The translations under genes and the position numbers were made by a program. This document shows positions 43,540-51,761 of a DNA stretch of 64,000 nucleotides, piece after piece; position 1 is the stretch's first letter, and each line of letters opens with the position of its first letter. Origin of the DNA: Dehalococcoidia bacterium (GTDB taxonomy: Bacteria; Chloroflexota; Dehalococcoidia; Lucifugimonadales; Lucifugimonadaceae); the NCBI GenBank assembly GCA_022824185.1, contig JAJEAU010000002.1, positions 62,001 through 126,000 on the forward strand, written 5' to 3'. The notes under the pieces were generated by a model. It was not told where the DNA came from. It did no database searches and saw only the letters and a list, made by a program, of their open reading frames with translations.

Positions 43540-45261
43540 ATGCTTACCGCAACTCAATCCGACCTCCTACACCGCCTAGCTGACACCTTCAACCAAGGCA
43601 CAGACTGGAAATCCAAAACCGGTGCCAATTGCATCCTCTGGACCGCGAACCACCCCTTCGAAATCATCTTTCCCCACGACGGCGGCAACGATGTCCACAT
43701 ACGCCGCACTCTGGAAGACCGACGACACCTCCGTACCGTCCCCGTCGTCCTCCTCGCCGATTCCGACGAGCCTGACAAAACCCGCGTCGTTGGCCCCCAC
43801 GAACCATACATCGTCCGAAAACTAAACACCTCTTCCGTCCTCAACCTCATTGACCACGCCCGGCAACTTAACACGCGCCCAGCCGCCGCTTTCCTCGAAC
43901 GAGAATTTCGACGCCTAGACGAATCCGTCCTTCCAGGCATACGCGTCAAAGAACTGCTTACTCCCCACTACATCCAGACTCGCCTACGACAATCCGCCTC
44001 CAGTCACAAATTCCTCGAAACCGCCACTCAAAACATAAACCGTATCCCTCAATCCACCACTTGGCGCACCCTGCTCGGAAAACTCGGATACCAAATCGAT
44101 CGACTCGAACCTCGGGGATACATCCTCAGATACCAAGATTCCCCCGTCGCCATCGTCCATCCCATGAACAGCGCTGACGACTTCAGCCACATGAACGAAA
44201 ACGGCGAACTCCCGGATGGTCTCGTCCTCAAAGACTGCCTATCGAACGGCGCCCATTGGGGCATCCTCGTTGCTGGGCTACGCTTCCGCATATTCCAAGC
44301 CAATCCGGACTTCGGTTCCGCCACAGCCCGTTACATCGAGATCGACGCCCGAGAACTCGATGCCCAAGACCGGCTCTACCTCGGTCTCTTAGCCCCTGAA
44401 TCACTCAAAGCGAACGGCCGGCTAACGTCTTGGGCATCGGACGCTAGAGACTTCGGCGAAGAACTCCGAAAAGGGCTTGAAGAACGGCTTAGGACCATTG
44501 CTTTACCGAGTCTCGCGAAAGGCATCGGACGCCATCTCGAACTAACAAAAGACGTTGACCTTAAAGACCGCGAAAACCTCCGCGAAATCGAAGAAGCAGT
44601 CCTGACGCTCGTGTTCCGCTTCATGTTCCTGTTACACGTTGAGGCTCGCGGGTACCTGCCAGTCCAGTCACATGCGTACTCTCGCCACAGCGCGCGGACC
44701 CTTGCCGATCAGTGCCGCAAAGATCAATGGGAATACGACTCGAAATCAACTCGAATCTGGGATAGCCTGCGCACGCTCACACGAATGATCCGACACGGCG
44801 ATACATCAGTCGGCGTCCCCGCATACAACGGCAGCCTCTTCGCTCCTGACCGCTTTCCCGGCGCCGAAACCCTCGAAACCCTCGAAATCCCAGACACATC
44901 CATCGCCCCCGCATTGCGAGCAATCACCTTCGACCCAGATCAGTCCGACGCCGGTTTGGACTACGCCGGTCTACAAGTCGGACACCTTGGCGCTATCTAT
45001 GAAGCCCTGCTAGCCCTCAAATTGACACGCGCCAACGAAGACCTCAAATATGACGCCAGACGCGATGTCTTCCGCCCCATGCAGGCCAGCGAAAAGGCAG
45101 AAATCACCGCGTCAGAACTCTTCTATCAAACTGAAAAAGGCGGACGCAAAGCCGGCGGCGTCTACTACACACGCGAAGAATTCGTCCAACACCTCCTCAG
45201 AAATTCACTCATTCCCGCACTCGATGAACACCTTGGACGCATCGAAAACCTTGCCAAGTAA
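43540..45261 (+). CDS. N-terminal part of an Eco57I-like DNA adenine methylase, ended by in-frame TAA
   Basis: This 573-residue product corresponds to the N-terminal region of large type IIG/BREX-like N6-adenine methylases. It ends with RKAGGVYYTREEFVQHLLRN, the segment that normally comes just before SAM motif I, so the product alone has no catalytic site. The next ORF continues in the same frame after TAA at 45259 and a second TAA at 45280, with no other damage in about 1,300 codons. It is either a split or inactivated gene, or one expressed by read-through. The earlier part (residues 1-350) has no recognised domain and may serve target recognition. Confidence 0.85.
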   Translation: MLTATQSDLLHRLADTFNQGTDWKSKTGANCILWTANHPFEIIFPHDGGNDVHIRRTLEDRRHLRTVPVVLLADSDEPDKTRVVGPHEPYIVRKLNTSSVLNLIDHARQLNTRPAAAFLEREFRRLDESVLPGIRVKELLTPHYIQTRLRQSASSHKFLETATQNINRIPQSTTWRTLLGKLGYQIDRLEPRGYILRYQDSPVAIVHPMNSADDFSHMNENGELPDGLVLKDCLSNGAHWGILVAGLRFRIFQANPDFGSATARYIEIDARELDAQDRLYLGLLAPESLKANGRLTSWASDARDFGEELRKGLEERLRTIALPSLAKGIGRHLELTKDVDLKDRENLREIEEAVLTLVFRFMFLLHVEARGYLPVQSHAYSRHSARTLADQCRKDQWEYDSKSTRIWDSLRTLTRMIRHGDTSVGVPAYNGSLFAPDRFPGAETLETLEIPDTSIAPALRAITFDPDQSDAGLDYAGLQVGHLGAIYEALLALKLTRANEDLKYDARRDVFRPMQASEKAEITASELFYQTEKGGRKAGGVYYTREEFVQHLLRNSLIPALDEHLGRIENLAK

Positions 45262-45315
45262 GATCCTAAATCAGCCGCGTAAAACCTCTTCGACTTCTCA
45301 ATCGTCGATCCCGCA

Positions 45316-47544
45316 ATGGGTAGCGGACACTTCCTCACCACCGCGCTAGACATGATGGCGGACCGCATCGAGCTTTTTCTCGCAGACATCGGTGGACTGC
45401 CCACAATACGCGACCAACTTGACGAACTGAAGAGAGGCGAAGACAAAGACATCGCAACGATCGAAGACGTTGATCTCCTGCGCCGTCTGATTCTCAAACG
45501 CTGCATCTACGGCGTCGATATCTCGCCAATGGCCGTCGAAGTCGCAAACGTTACCCTTTGGCTCGCATCTTTCGTGCCGGGGCTTGCTCTCTCATACCTC
45601 GGAAGCAACCTTAAGTGCGGCGATGCGTTGGTAGGTGTTGCTGACCCCACGATCGTCGGCAGTGCAGATAGCCCGTTCTTCACTGGACAAGCCGTGACCG
45701 CCGCAATGGAACGCGCCGCAAAACTGCAACGCAAGCTCGGAAGCATCTCCGACATCACCCCTGACGAAGTCAAAATTTCGCAAGAACTAGACGACAAAAT
45801 GTACGTAGCGACAGGATACTTGCGGTCGGCATTCAATCTGTGGACCGCCGATCCGCTGGGATTGGACGGCGCTCGGCACACACTTGAGATGCATGCGCCA
45901 GGAATTCTCAAAGGCGACCTTGGAGGACCGTACTGGGAAGCCCATGACACGATGGATGCTGCTGATTTTGACGCGGACCAACATCGGTTTTTTCACTGGC
46001 CTCTCGAGTTTCCGCATGTCTTTCATAGCGATCAGCCGGGATTCAATGTTGTGACCGGCAATCCTCCGTGGAATGAAGTCACAGTTGAAGAACTCAAGTT
46101 CTACACGCTCTTGGACCCCGGACTCTCCGGTCTTACCCGGCTTGCAGACAGAAGGAGCCGAATCTCAGAACTGGATGAACAAAATCCAGCACTTCGTCCA
46201 GAGTTTGAACGACAACGCCAAACTCTTAAAGCCTACCGGGGATTTTTCACGTCGGCAGGCGGATACCAGTTGCAGGGTGTAGGCGATAAAGATTTGTACC
46301 AGCTTTTTTGTGAGAGATATACACAACTAGTAGCAGACGACGGAAAACTAGGAGTAGTCCTGCCTCGAACGGCTTTCTTGGCGAAAGGGGCATCTGGTTT
46401 CCGCCGATGGCTATTTGAACAGCACGGTGTCCGCAGAGTAGATGTCGTTTTGAACAAATCTCGGTGGGCCTTCGATATGGAACCCAGATACACTGTAGCG
46501 TTGCTCGCGGCCCAGCATTCACGTCCCAAAGGGCCTATCTCAGTGACACTGAGTGGACCTGCGAGCAATTTGGGTGAATTCCTCAACTGGTCACAAGGCG
46601 ATGGCGTGGACTTGACAGTTAAATCGTTGGCGAAGCCCTACGTTTTGCCGTTGGTGCCTACTCAGCAACACGCGAATGTCCTTGCAAAGATGCGTCGTGG
46701 GGTTAGATTTGATAATATAGATATAACGAATCTTGATCAGGGACGGGAAAACGCCGTTGTTGAGTTTCGTCCAGTTCCCTATGCGGAATTACACGAAACT
46801 CAACAACGGCGTTTTTTCACGTTACCTGATGGCCAAGGTGATACATCAGTCTGGAAGGGTAGGTCGTTTGATCAATATGATCCACATGGTAAGGATCCCG
46901 CTGGATTATGTGTATGGCAAGATGCATTTGACTTTGTCCAAAACAAACGATCACGCTCTCGAGTGTTTAAAGCTATGTTCAGCAAGGAACACTTGGCAGA
47001 TCCAACTACACATCCAATTCAATCTAGTAGGATCGCGTTTCGCGATGTTACCAACCGGACTAATTCTCGAACTGTGATTGCGTGTCTCATCCCTCCGAAG
47101 ACACCACTCACGAATAAAGCTCCATATTTGATATTCGCAGATTGGGACGCGGAATATCAAGCAGCAGTTCTCGGCGTCATGAACAGCTTAGCCTTTGATT
47201 GGGAGGCTCGACGTTACGTAGAAACCAACCTTAACTATTTCATACTCGATCTCTTGACCTTTCCTTCCCCCCAAAACACCCCCTGGCAACAGATCGGCAA
47301 ACTAGCCGCCCGCCTATCCTGCGTAGATGAACGCTTCGCCGATTTCGCAGCCGAGGCAGGCGTCGAATACGGACCACAAACCGATGCCGAACGAGACGAC
47401 ATGCGCGCGAAGATCGACGCCTTAGTCGCCCGCGCATACGACCTTACCGAAGATGAACTCAGATTCGTCTTCACCGACTTCACCGAGCGCGCCGTAACTC
47501 CCGCCTACCGCCAACTCGTCCTCGAAAAGTTCGAGCGGCTGTAG
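45316..47544 (+). CDS. Catalytic part of the Eco57I-like DNA adenine methylase
   Basis: The 742 residues include the ATG at 45316, which falls inside motif I. The codons for IVDPA lie upstream, and MGSGHF is the first text. Motif IV, N249-PPW, sits in VVTGNPPWNEV. VLPRTAFLAKGASGFRRWLF and ASLFV-like ILDLLTFPSP are typical of this class. Because translation from 45316 would remove half of motif I, an active enzyme needs fusion with the upstream ORF. The target-recognition region is probably in residues about 400-600. It is followed 12 bases later by two PaREP1-like genes. Confidence 0.85.
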   Translation: MGSGHFLTTALDMMADRIELFLADIGGLPTIRDQLDELKRGEDKDIATIEDVDLLRRLILKRCIYGVDISPMAVEVANVTLWLASFVPGLALSYLGSNLKCGDALVGVADPTIVGSADSPFFTGQAVTAAMERAAKLQRKLGSISDITPDEVKISQELDDKMYVATGYLRSAFNLWTADPLGLDGARHTLEMHAPGILKGDLGGPYWEAHDTMDAADFDADQHRFFHWPLEFPHVFHSDQPGFNVVTGNPPWNEVTVEELKFYTLLDPGLSGLTRLADRRSRISELDEQNPALRPEFERQRQTLKAYRGFFTSAGGYQLQGVGDKDLYQLFCERYTQLVADDGKLGVVLPRTAFLAKGASGFRRWLFEQHGVRRVDVVLNKSRWAFDMEPRYTVALLAAQHSRPKGPISVTLSGPASNLGEFLNWSQGDGVDLTVKSLAKPYVLPLVPTQQHANVLAKMRRGVRFDNIDITNLDQGRENAVVEFRPVPYAELHETQQRRFFTLPDGQGDTSVWKGRSFDQYDPHGKDPAGLCVWQDAFDFVQNKRSRSRVFKAMFSKEHLADPTTHPIQSSRIAFRDVTNRTNSRTVIACLIPPKTPLTNKAPYLIFADWDAEYQAAVLGVMNSLAFDWEARRYVETNLNYFILDLLTFPSPQNTPWQQIGKLAARLSCVDERFADFAAEAGVEYGPQTDAERDDMRAKIDALVARAYDLTEDELRFVFTDFTERAVTPAYRQLVLEKFERL

Positions 47545-47555
47545 AATCAATCCCC

Positions 47556-47915
47556 ATGACTACAGTCGAACGATATCAATCCGTCTCTGCCCGTTTGTTT
47601 GAACAAGCCCATGTCGAACTTGAGAGCGGAGACCTGATACAAGCCTCAGAGAAGTTCTGGGGCTCAACTGCGCAGGCTCTAAAAGCTATCGCACAAGATC
47701 GAGGTTGGGAGCACGGTTCACACGCACACTTTTATCGAATCGTACAAGACCTCATTGAAGAGACTAACGACAGAGAATTGTTCGATCTCTTCCGTGCCGC
47801 AAATCAGTTGCACGGCAACTTCTACGAACACTGGATGACCGAGTGGCAGATACGGAGTCTAGCTGGCCAAGTCGGCGAACTCCTAGATCGACTCGATACC
47901 ATCAATAATCCATGA
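47556..47915 (+). CDS. PaREP1/HEPN-like small protein, first of a tandem pair
   Basis: This 119-residue helical protein has HVELESGDLIQASEKFWGSTA, then ALKAIAQDRGWEHGSHAHFYRIV and a C-terminal LHGNFYEHW segment. This matches PaREP1-type proteins, a branch of the HEPN superfamily. R-x6-H in RGWEHGSH could be the HEPN catalytic pair, which is an inference. The stop overlaps the start of the second copy (ATGA). It lies between methylase and helicase genes and is likely a subunit or regulator of that system. Confidence 0.75.
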   Translation: MTTVERYQSVSARLFEQAHVELESGDLIQASEKFWGSTAQALKAIAQDRGWEHGSHAHFYRIVQDLIEETNDRELFDLFRAANQLHGNFYEHWMTEWQIRSLAGQVGELLDRLDTINNP

Positions 47916-48271
47916 CCACCGCTGAACAATACCAATCCGTCTCGACCCAGTTGTTTGACCAAGCACACGTCGAACTCGAAGCTGGCGATCTTATCCAATC
48001 CTCTGAGAAATTCTGGGGTGCCGCGGCTCAGGCTTTGAAAGCGATTGCCCAACAACGAGGATGGGAACATCGGTCTCATGCCCACTTCTACCGCATCGTA
48101 CGTAACATCGTTGACGAAACTGGCGACAATGAGATCTTCATATTGTTCCAAGCCGCTGACACTCTGCACGCTAACTTTTACGAACATTGGCTGCCAGAGG
48201 ACGAAATCCGAAGATTGGCAAACCTCGTCGGTCAACTCTTGGACCGCCTCGGCAGCGTAGACCGCGGTTGA
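47912..48271 (+). CDS. PaREP1/HEPN-like small protein, second of a tandem pair
   Basis: This 119-residue protein is a clear paralogue of the one before, with the same length and long identical runs: HVELEAGDLIQSSEKFWGAAA, RGWEHRSHAHFYRIV and FYEHWLPED. Translation is coupled by ATGA. Retention of both copies with conserved cores suggests that they form a heteromer or have divided roles. Confidence 0.75.
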   Translation: MTTAEQYQSVSTQLFDQAHVELEAGDLIQSSEKFWGAAAQALKAIAQQRGWEHRSHAHFYRIVRNIVDETGDNEIFILFQAADTLHANFYEHWLPEDEIRRLANLVGQLLDRLGSVDRG

Positions 48272-48362
48272 AGATCGTGAGATCCTTCAATCCGCTAGTT
48301 GTCCTGAAAATCGTTAAACCGAGCGTCAGCTAGAAAATCCGACTGGGTCAATCGCAACACCA

Positions 48363-51300
48363 ATGCCCAACCGCGCTTACGAACTCGTCGACAACAACCT
48401 TATCGGACGCCACCTCGACGCTCTACGCGCGCTGGCATACCAACACAAACTCCCTGTCAGCATCGCTACCGGATACGTAAACCTAGACGGACTCGACTCG
48501 CTCGCATCGATAACGCAAACGGCCGGATTGCCTGCTCGATTGATGATCGGGGCCGCTCCGAGCCCGGATGAACTAGTCGGCAGTACGGACACGCGTATCG
48601 TCGACCATTTCGACCAGTCCATCAAAAACCTTCGCGGTGAACGCAACTTCGAAGCATTCCCAAAGGAACGGCGAGAGAAGATCGACCGCGTGGCAGAATT
48701 CATCACTTCGGATCAGGTCGAAGTTCGGCGTTATGTGAGACGTTTTCTCCACGGCAAGGCCTACATATTCAGCGAACCTGAAGGCCCATCGCCACTAGGC
48801 GCAGCCCTCGTGTCGTCTGCAAATCTCACCGGACCAGGTCTCACAACAAACCTAGAGTTGGGCATGGTCCAATACCAACCAAACGTCGTTGGAATGACGC
48901 TGGAGTGGTATCACGGACTCTGGGAAGATGCCCAAGACTTCAAAGACGAACTCCTTGAACTCCTCGAACCAGAAATCCCCGAATCAGACCCATACACCGT
49001 CTTCCTACGTGCCCTGTACGACTACTACGGCGACGATTTCGACGACCAAACTCCAACCGAAACACCGTCCTTAACCTCTTTCCAACGCGACGGCTACGCC
49101 CGCGCACGCCGCATCCTCGAAAACCACGGTGGTGTCCTCTACGCAGACGGCGTCGGAATGGGCAAGACCGAAATCGGAGTCGAATTCGTTCGCGAATTCA
49201 TGCACAACCAAGGACAACAGGTCCTAGTTATCGCCCCTGCACAACTTCGAGACAACCTTTGGACACAGCGTCTCGCTGAAGCAAATCTCCGCACCGACAT
49301 CGTCTCATTCCAACAACTCGCTAACGACCGCCAACTGTCGAACGATTCAACTCAACGAATCCTCCAAGTGGATAAAGACGTCTATCGCTTGGTCGTCATC
49401 GACGAAGCGCACGCGTACCGAAACTCCGACAACTCCTGGTACATCGCACTAGACCGGTTGATGAGCGGCACGCAGAAAAAGCTCCTGATGCTGACCGCTA
49501 CCCCGGTCAACAACTCGCTCTGGGACCTCCACAACCTCTTCCTGCTCTTCGGACGGCACGACGGCGCATTCGCCGACGCTCCGCTCCGTATCCCCAGCCT
49601 ACGCAAATTCTTCGCCTCCGCCGGAGCCAACAACCCAGAGGAAGTCTCGGAATCTCAACTCTTCCCCCTCATCGATTCGCTCACAGTACGTCGAGATCGC
49701 AACTTCGTAGTAAAGCAATACCCGAACGAACGATTCCAAGACGGCACAAAGGTCCAATTCCCTGAACCGCAACTGGAAGAAGAGCGCTACGACCTCGACA
49801 CGGTATACCCCGAGCTAGTCAAAAACATCTCGAATGACATCGGCGCACTCACCATGGCGCGTTATCGCCACGAGGCATACCTGAAAGGTGGACAAGAAAG
49901 CGCGTCTCAGGAAACTATCGCTGCGTTCATGCAGTCGATGCTCCTCAAACGATTCGAGTCGTCATGGTACGCCGCGTTGCGAACCGTTGAGCGCATGATC
50001 GATGCCATCGAACGGATCCTCGCTTCAATCAGACAACACGGAGTTGTCCCAATCGGCAGCGCCATTGACGACGTCAAAGTCGATGCCGACCAAGGCATCA
50101 TCATCCAAGACGAACTATTCGTAGAAAGCGAATCTCTAGGCGACTTCATCGACGCGAGTGAGTTCATCGACACTTTCGTCAAAGACCTAGAAAACGATTT
50201 GAGCAAACTCGGCGACATGGAAACTCGACTGAGTAGTCTGGAGCACCACCCCGACCCCAAACTCGAAACTCTCAAACGCGTGATGGCAAAAACGCCTTCC
50301 CAAAAGGTCGCGATCTTCTCGTCCTTCGGCGATACGGTCGAATACTTGGTTGACCGCATCGAAACCGATCCTGCGATCCTCAATGGTCGGGCATGGACTT
50401 CCGTCGTTGGAGGTGACACCGATCCCAACCAGCGCGCACACGCCGTCGAACGATTCTGTCCCGCATCAGAATCCGAGGCCCAAAACGGCAATACGACACG
50501 CCCCGACGACGAAGTCGACGTGCTCATCAGCACCGACGTCCTTTCTGAAGGGCAAAACCTTCAGCAAGCACAAGCCGTACTCTCATACGACATGCCGTGG
50601 AACCCTCAACGCGTTGTCCAACGCAACGGTCGTGTCATCCGTCTTCGAAGCCCTCACGATACTGCTTTGCTATATACCTTGCTCCCTGTTCAAGGCGACC
50701 TTGAAAAACTGCTCAACCTCGAATCAAACATCCAAGCCAAAATCGAAGCCGCCAACGCCTCAATCGGAATGGAAAGCCCCGTTCTCCGACAAACCGACGC
50801 CGAATCTCGCATCTACGCCGATCTGCAAAACTTCACAACCCGGCTCGCCCAAGGAGACAAAACCCTGCTCGACGAGGAAATGAACGCTGCCTACGCCGGC
50901 GAATTCTTCCGTGCCGAACTCATGCGCGCCCACCGTGAGGGTGAACTTCAGCGTATCCGTGACCTGCCGTGGGGCATTGGTGCAGCGTTCGTTCCTGCCT
51001 CGACCTCCCTCACTGAACCCGCAGTCTTCTTCGCATGCCGCACCCGCAATGAAGAACGGTACTGGCGCATGGTATCGAAATCCGGCAACATTCTTGACGT
51101 CGAAGACCTCGAGATGATGTTCCACATCAACCCGACCGGCCGACCCAGTAGCGACATCCCGTCTGACATCGACTTTGATCTACTTTTCAACATCGCAGCA
51201 GAAAACATCGTCGAGACACATAACCAACTCACCGATCCAACCGCTCTCGAAGGTACTGTACCCGCAAGCCAAAGGTGGGCCCTTGAAATCCTCACATCCC

Positions 51301-51560
51301 CAGATGCCCCCGAAGGCCAGCAATACGACGACGCCCACGCCGCTCTAAGCATCGGCAGAAACCAACGCGTCCGACGCGCATTGTCAGACCTACGAAAAGA
51401 ATCTGCACAAGCCATGACCATCACCGAAACCGCCGCCAGAATCTTGGAAATCGTCAAAGAATTCGGCCTAGCACCAGTTGACCCACCAACTCCACCAAAA
51501 CCCATCACCCCCAACGACCTAGGCGTAGTCTGCTACCAAGTAATCCTCCCCAACCCCTAA
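48363..51560 (+). CDS. PLD-nuclease/SNF2-type helicase of a putative defence system
   Basis: This 1065-residue protein has an N-terminal phospholipase-D-like nuclease domain (about 1-200) with H130-x-K132 and S151-S-A-N154, the half-site found in PLD-type restriction nucleases. The helicase core follows, with GVGMGKT (263-269), IDEAH around D347, LMLTATPVNN, STDVLSEGQNLQ and QRNGRVIRL near 755. The C-terminal 250 residues match no family known to me. The enzyme probably translocates on DNA and cuts it, working with the adenine methylase encoded upstream for self/non-self marking. It is the last gene of the five-ORF run from 43540. Confidence 0.85.
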   Translation: MPNRAYELVDNNLIGRHLDALRALAYQHKLPVSIATGYVNLDGLDSLASITQTAGLPARLMIGAAPSPDELVGSTDTRIVDHFDQSIKNLRGERNFEAFPKERREKIDRVAEFITSDQVEVRRYVRRFLHGKAYIFSEPEGPSPLGAALVSSANLTGPGLTTNLELGMVQYQPNVVGMTLEWYHGLWEDAQDFKDELLELLEPEIPESDPYTVFLRALYDYYGDDFDDQTPTETPSLTSFQRDGYARARRILENHGGVLYADGVGMGKTEIGVEFVREFMHNQGQQVLVIAPAQLRDNLWTQRLAEANLRTDIVSFQQLANDRQLSNDSTQRILQVDKDVYRLVVIDEAHAYRNSDNSWYIALDRLMSGTQKKLLMLTATPVNNSLWDLHNLFLLFGRHDGAFADAPLRIPSLRKFFASAGANNPEEVSESQLFPLIDSLTVRRDRNFVVKQYPNERFQDGTKVQFPEPQLEEERYDLDTVYPELVKNISNDIGALTMARYRHEAYLKGGQESASQETIAAFMQSMLLKRFESSWYAALRTVERMIDAIERILASIRQHGVVPIGSAIDDVKVDADQGIIIQDELFVESESLGDFIDASEFIDTFVKDLENDLSKLGDMETRLSSLEHHPDPKLETLKRVMAKTPSQKVAIFSSFGDTVEYLVDRIETDPAILNGRAWTSVVGGDTDPNQRAHAVERFCPASESEAQNGNTTRPDDEVDVLISTDVLSEGQNLQQAQAVLSYDMPWNPQRVVQRNGRVIRLRSPHDTALLYTLLPVQGDLEKLLNLESNIQAKIEAANASIGMESPVLRQTDAESRIYADLQNFTTRLAQGDKTLLDEEMNAAYAGEFFRAELMRAHREGELQRIRDLPWGIGAAFVPASTSLTEPAVFFACRTRNEERYWRMVSKSGNILDVEDLEMMFHINPTGRPSSDIPSDIDFDLLFNIAAENIVETHNQLTDPTALEGTVPASQRWALEILTSPDAPEGQQYDDAHAALSIGRNQRVRRALSDLRKESAQAMTITETAARILEIVKEFGLAPVDPPTPPKPITPNDLGVVCYQVILPNP

Positions 51561-51761
51561 CAAACCCCATACCCAAAACTAATCCGCAAACAACCAGAAC
51601 CAATTCCCAAGAATCCCACAAAACCCGAAAAATCCCCGTTCAGACCAACAACCAACAACCAACAGCCTCCATCCCCTTCACCCATTCGGTTGCCATTCCT
51701 CCCCATCCCACCCCCCATTGCTAAAATGCAGCAAACCGGAAACCAAAGTAGAAAGCCAAAA

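Follow-up and report, generated by a model that had tools for sequence, protein, structure and literature searches.

Among described systems, DISARM comprises the DrmMI methylase (MTase), the DrmD SNF2 helicase and the DrmC PLD nuclease, with DrmA/DrmB (DUF1998/MZB protein) as its core. Type-2 BREX-related (BR/Hma) systems join an N6-MTase to an effector in which an HKD domain is combined with a Swi2/Snf2 helicase, and BREX-type loci are accompanied by HEPN backup effectors (PMC12839542). In the restriction–modification (RM) enzyme MmeI, Tyr642 and Lys645 specify base pair 2 and Glu806 and Arg808 set base pair 6 (PMC4833311). Phase-variable RM systems, in which repeat tracts or inversions switch a methylase or its specificity, are already known, as are intragenic invertons (PMC11868660). 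PaREP1 proteins belong to the HEPN-T group, and their occurrence in tandem is known as well (PMC3710099).

Here we analyse a locus in a 64,000-nt stretch of DNA (hereafter, the window) of contig JAJEAU010000002.1 from a Dehalococcoidia bacterium (assembly GCA_022824185.1; genome G000 below). An initial annotation had described the locus as a four-part, restriction-like operon of an Eco57I-like methylase, two PaREP1-like proteins and a helicase with a PLD nuclease domain. On the evidence set out below, we consider it likely that the locus is instead a two-gene, ATP-dependent RM-like system with a micro-inverton inside the MTase gene, that the window copy is probably switched off and that the PaREP1 genes are cargo.

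A conserved MTase–helicase pair at a variable site

All five ORFs of the initial annotation, at 43540–51560, are present on the same strand, and they lie in an inserted segment whose gene content is limited to the MTase, the two PaREP1 proteins and the PLD–SNF2 helicase (Table 1). In five genomes of the same genus the insertion site is empty, and the dehydratase and aldolase genes that flank it adjoin, about 100 bp apart. The closest same-genus genome, G006, has a different module at exactly this site (L211, G006:C35:243500-253500), consisting of a 971-aa methylase-like protein, a HigA-like regulator and two unknown proteins; no Pfam family matches the 971-aa protein, which is read as a methylase from a weak PrmC match and inspection. 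The empty site in five relatives, the other module in G006 and the shift in GC content fit a defence insertion site with turnover.

Table 1. Features of the locus, in window coordinates
Feature	Position	Strand	Remarks
Inserted segment	43238..51714	.	GC 54%, flanking DNA 58–59%; right edge uncertain, 51693–51754
Type IIG-like N6-adenine MTase gene	43540..47544	+	1335 codons with two in-frame TAA; N-terminal part 43540–45261, C-terminal part from 45283
First in-frame TAA of MTase gene	45259..45261	+	Frame reading and homolog comparison
Second in-frame TAA of MTase gene	45280..45282	+	Frame reading and homolog comparison
Left arm of perfect 23-bp inverted repeat in MTase coding sequence	46748..46770	+	
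22-bp centre, putatively invertible	46771..46792	+	PVPYAELH as found, VIPHRELD if inverted
Codons of variable AELH motif (RELD if flipped)	46783..46794	+	First and fourth positions are suspected DNA-reading residues
Right arm of inverted repeat	46793..46815	+	
PaREP1/HEPN-T-like protein 1, 119 aa	47556..47915	+	PF05942; judged a passenger
PaREP1/HEPN-T-like protein 2, 119 aa	47912..48271	+	Start overlaps stop of protein 1 (ATGA); judged a passenger
PLD (HKD)–SNF2 helicase, 1065 aa	48363..51560	+	PLD ~1–200, SNF2 motor ~221–850, uncharacterised C-terminal domain

The MTase gene lies upstream of the helicase gene in 44 of 44 homologous helicase loci, a locus being taken as testable when the helicase homolog had at least 1 kb of upstream sequence. 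The pair is found in Chloroflexota, Actinobacteriota, Acidobacteriota and Gemmatimonadota and on haloarchaeal plasmids, and plasmids of Halalkalicoccus, Mycobacterium, Euzebya and Rhodococcus carry distantly related pairs in the same two-gene order, with the products annotated only as 'hypothetical protein' and 'helicase-related protein'. No neighbours other than MTase and helicase recur widely; the conserved unit is the MTase plus the PLD–SNF2 helicase, and this pair has no system name in any of the libraries searched. Some loci carry additional genes. In four of Acidimicrobiia type (L026, L029, L034, L041) a protein of about 810–830 aa, whose match to GHKL (HATPase_c_3) is weak, is encoded downstream of the helicase and may be a MORC/paraMORC-like partner. 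On the Euzebya plasmid (L219 10291-11139), a gene for a phosphorothioated-DNA-binding restriction endonuclease directly follows the two-gene unit.

The last ORF encodes a helicase with SNF2 and C-terminal helicase domains and an N-terminal PLD domain, whose profile match is weak (3.7e-5, below the Pfam cut-off). The PLD residues H130, K132, S152, N154 and E165 are invariant in 35 sequences, in the pattern HxK and SxN...E, as are the helicase motifs. The order of the domains, with HKD ahead of the Swi2/Snf2 helicase, is that of the Hma-like systems. In the predicted structure the best alignment of the helicase core to an SNF2 motor has Z 19.0 (rmsd 5.2, 389 residues). No recognition domain was recognised in the PLD–SNF2 protein, and the viral contigs scanned with the helicase alignment contained no phage-borne relative.

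One MTase gene with two stop codons

The first two ORFs are present as described but are not separate genes: they form one MTase gene in a single frame that is broken by two TAA codons, seven codons apart and just upstream of motif I, with the rest of the 1335-codon frame intact. MTase homologs are single ORFs of about 1300–1360 codons, and no homolog that spans the junction has a stop there; the 57-nt spacing is usually identical, and the positions of the two TAA codons are taken by R, T, Q, A or a similar residue. ORF 2 has its ATG (45316) within the SAM-binding motif DPAMGSGHF, which makes a natural start at this codon implausible and an active protein made from it unlikely. A natural separate subunit encoded by ORF 2 was rejected on these grounds, the ATG lying in motif I and the homologs being fused; a split caused by frameshift was rejected because both halves share one frame. 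The two TAA codons may mean that the gene lost its function recently, or may be an error in the sequence. Because they interrupt the MTase, the system is probably off at present in G000, and the suggestion that the methylase marks self DNA is doubtful for the window copy.

The assignment to Eco57I-type methylases was borne out (PF07669, 4.6e-19). In PADLOC the window MTase matches the type IIG profile at 7.8e-72, and the homolog L217 matches that profile over its full length at 1.3e-196. Three domains are predicted in the N-terminus: a small one of alpha/beta fold, a REase-like one and a helical one that resembles BrxX/HsdM. The REase-like domain matched BpuSI (Z 9.3, rmsd 3.8, 128 residues) and also HsdR, so that a single polypeptide carries both an MTase and a REase fold, as in type IIG RM enzymes; as judged from sequence and model, no lysine is found among the invariant columns of the REase-like region. 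Elsewhere in G000 there is no second copy of the inverted repeat described below or of the MTase segment. Besides the locus itself, the search returned a 19-residue match to the MTase (VWKGRSFDQYDPHGKDPAG, 89% identical) near position 85420 of contig C15, in a stretch that is otherwise unrelated and is possibly a remnant of another methylase.

An inverted repeat within the MTase coding sequence

The initial annotation missed a probable switch in the MTase gene. An inverted repeat, 46748–46815 in the window, is common to eight Chloroflexota genomes, and in the Chloroflexota branch that includes the window its arms are perfect, 23–26 bp long and placed round a 22-bp centre. Across the eight genomes the arms pair by Watson–Crick rules in 184 of 184 cases; 16 of the 23 pairs have changed on both sides and none on one side only, a covariation that none of 500 shuffles equalled, in a set of related Chloroflexota loci whose counted cells are not independent events. 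The lack of G-U intermediates points to maintenance of the arms at the DNA level.

By orientation the centres divide into two groups of four, with which all 28 pairwise comparisons are consistent, and the G171 centre is the exact reverse complement of the G274 centre (22/22 positions, compared with 12/22 in direct orientation). All eight centres are free of stops in both orientations, and a flip toggles the encoded motif between RELD and [AT]ELH with the flanking residues unchanged. In another lineage, L020 has its own 23-bp arms round a 52-bp centre, and a flip there replaces FPTTELHET by FPVRELDET, a motif that many relatives carry. The element thus has inverted repeats within a gene and frames open both ways, as an intragenic inverton does, and its orientations are seen between species; the operon contains no recombinase. 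These sequence comparisons suggest that the inverted repeat is probably a phase-variation switch, likely of specificity, and we infer that the segment flips in living cells.

Motif states and repeat tracts at the same site

Three states of the motif occur across the family (RELD, [ATVD]ELH and GD[LM]N), at a position just after the MTase domain, where it joins the recognition domain. Mapped on an MTase-core tree of 37 sequences, the states need 13 changes, scarcely below the mean of 14.4 for shuffled labels, and the close MTase cores L246, L252 and L256 carry three different states. The motif changes freely just after the MTase domain, like the specificity residues of MmeI, and because of this likeness we suggest that inversion would change DNA specificity.

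Simple repeat tracts in the MTase genes cluster at one site, residue ~1000–1080, the same as that of the inverted repeat. They include (CCAG)30 in L030, (AG)18 in L037, G10 in L043, (AG)7 in L045, (CCCA)7 in L241, G8 in L258 and G22 in L259, of which the last may be overlong; a poly-G in L238 adjoins N's and looks like an assembly artefact. Several of the genes with tracts are out of frame, and frame-shifting tracts were identified in the relatives L030, L037 and L043 and not in the window. Downstream of the tracts, L030, L037, L045, L241 and L258/L259 have the motif twice, as direct copies that differ in state and frame, and only one copy is in frame with the recognition domain. The helicase genes, over 176 kb, contain no repeat tracts. 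In these other lineages the tracts would switch the MTase on and off by frameshift.

The PaREP1 genes

That the two small proteins are PaREP1 paralogs was confirmed, both matching PF05942 above the cut-off (2e-18 and 5.9e-19) with a mutual identity of about 69%; a distant solved relative is 2jpu/2q00. An R-x6-H pattern, present in both, is conserved at 97% in 43 PaREP1-family sequences from Chloroflexota; the archaeal family is said in the literature to lack the R.

The proposed four-part set was not supported by a co-occurrence check: in every other chromosomal locus searched, PaREP1 is absent from the neighbourhood of the MTase–helicase pair. G000 has 11 PaREP1-family genes, single or in tandem and most of them beside unrelated genes, on contigs including C6, C12, C15, C21 and C22. 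In a phylum sample of 400 genomes the family occurs in 14, several of which also carry a helicase relative, and among the places listed in those genomes none outside the window has the two side by side. Chloroflexota relatives fill the slot between MTase and helicase with DUF5131 and three-Cys-motif partner (TcmP) genes (L093 11480-13352, L094 7253-8834), with a Uma2 nuclease or with a trypsin-like protein, or leave it almost or wholly empty. With the family scattered, linkage lacking elsewhere and the slot varying in content, the PaREP1 pair looks like a passenger in a variable slot, outside the conserved unit.

Proposed mechanism

The proposal of restriction-like defence is well supported for the MTase–helicase pair, given the 44/44 linkage, the variable insertion site and the DISARM/BREX-type domains, and is not supported for the four-part set; we infer from sequence that the pair has defence activity. 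In the mechanism that we propose, the type IIG-like MTase would use its target-recognition region to recognise and methylate a DNA site, and the PLD–SNF2 partner would translocate along unmodified invading DNA and cut it with its PLD domain. As the REase-like domain of the MTase has no conserved lysine, the PLD domain is the likely nuclease; and as a recognition domain is not evident in the partner, the choice of target would most likely come from the MTase, which would probably guide the partner. If the MTase were lost, the system would be switched off and the cell would not be killed, in keeping with the tolerance of relatives for MTase frameshifts. A flip of the 22-bp centre would exchange RELD and [AT]ELH and so alter DNA specificity. 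More specifically, the element may be a micro-inverton of about 68 bp, in which the two strands of the centre encode alternative base-reading tetrapeptides and one flip changes the specificity of both modification and restriction, tract switches having evolved at the same codons elsewhere; to this fuller version we give an even chance.

If true, this would be an unusually small change of specificity, confined to a few residues, with no change of frame and with the alternatives on opposite strands. The inverton would also point to the DNA-reading residues in a recognition domain of type IIG-like kind. The MTase–helicase pair itself is widespread and yet unnamed in the libraries searched.

Alternative explanations

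A working part for the PaREP1 proteins, as components or regulators of a four-part system, would suit the gap of 11 nt between the MTase and the first PaREP1 gene, the ATGA overlap of the two PaREP1 genes, the R-x6-H pattern that both conserve and the HEPN backup effectors of BREX-type loci (PMC12839542). The 11 dispersed family members in G000, the other occupants of the slot in relatives and, decisively for our rejection of PaREP1 as a system component, the lack of linkage at any other searched locus make this reading highly improbable, and we retain the two-gene unit. SauUSI is a PLD–helicase fusion too, and the helicase could likewise be a type IV, modification-dependent nuclease beside which the MTase acts separately; the Euzebya endonuclease gene next to the pair would agree with that. 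Against it are the strict linkage to the MTase in all 44 loci and the occurrence of tracts that would inactivate the MTase, with none in the helicase gene, and we regard a type IV enzyme as improbable compared with an MTase-guided partner.

The inverted repeat might be no invertible DNA but an RNA hairpin, acting as an attenuator or terminator: its predicted fold is strong (-57.8 kcal/mol, z -9.2), and in the window a U run follows. The terminator form was rejected, as terminator-like sites are not in excess there in a simple scan and L014 has no T run after the right arm. A hairpin of either kind is hard to reconcile with 184 pairs free of G-U and of one-sided change; it does not by itself explain centres found in both orientations, nor that both orientations encode motifs of the family. 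We give it little credence and prefer an inverton. A further reading concerns the window copy and not the family, namely that it is a decaying remnant with a dead MTase and no current function. The two TAA codons directly before motif I, a C-terminal half with no plausible start and the absence of a high-identity MTase from the other same-genus genomes speak for decay; the otherwise intact 1335-codon MTase frame, the 1065-codon helicase frame, both PaREP1 frames and arms still perfect at 23/23 argue against an old pseudogene, which should have lost both frames and arms. Decay is thus a possible but doubtful account of this copy, and we favour a two-gene system that is at present switched off.

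Comparison with known systems

No exact match to a named system was found in the libraries searched. The locus resembles DISARM in its related MTase (DrmMI, 3.2e-36), its SNF2 motor (DrmD, 5.4e-34) and its PLD nuclease domain (weak DrmC match); in the window, unlike DISARM, the PLD domain is fused to the motor. DrmA/DrmB are absent from the insert, PF09369 has no match in G000 (~91% complete), and the scores fall far short of the curated cut-offs, the helicase reaching 117.7 bits against a DrmD-type cut-off of 610. The N6-MTase and HKD–Swi2/Snf2 helicase are shared with BR/Hma systems, of which the DUF499 ATPase and DUF3780 occur neither in the insert nor among the recurrent neighbours; the BREX protein PglZ is likewise missing from the insert, with only a match below the cut-off elsewhere in G000. 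Membership of DISARM, BREX or Hma was rejected on these absences and on the DrmD score.

The type IIG/IIL enzymes BpuSI and MmeI offer a second likeness, in the type IIG profile that extends over the full length of a homolog and in the order of a REase-like fold followed by the MTase. The two variable residues that follow closely on the MTase domain, spaced i/i+3, would correspond by analogy to Tyr642 and Lys645 of MmeI (PMC4833311). The locus differs from these enzymes in that its REase-like domain lacks a conserved catalytic lysine, its partner is a PLD–SNF2 motor and its motif lies on the putative inverton. In the openly searchable literature we did not find an MTase–helicase pair combined with an inverton.

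Switching by tracts or inversions links the family to phase-variable RM systems (PMC11868660) and, so far as the citation in PMC12839542 conveys, to the phase-variable resistance of Pgl; here, by contrast, a few codons on a 22-bp centre would be exchanged in frame. With intragenic invertons as summarised in PMC11868660 (Chanin et al. 2024) the element shares inverted repeats within a coding sequence. Compared with that summary, it stands apart in its very short centre and in two strands that encode alternative motifs used throughout the family.
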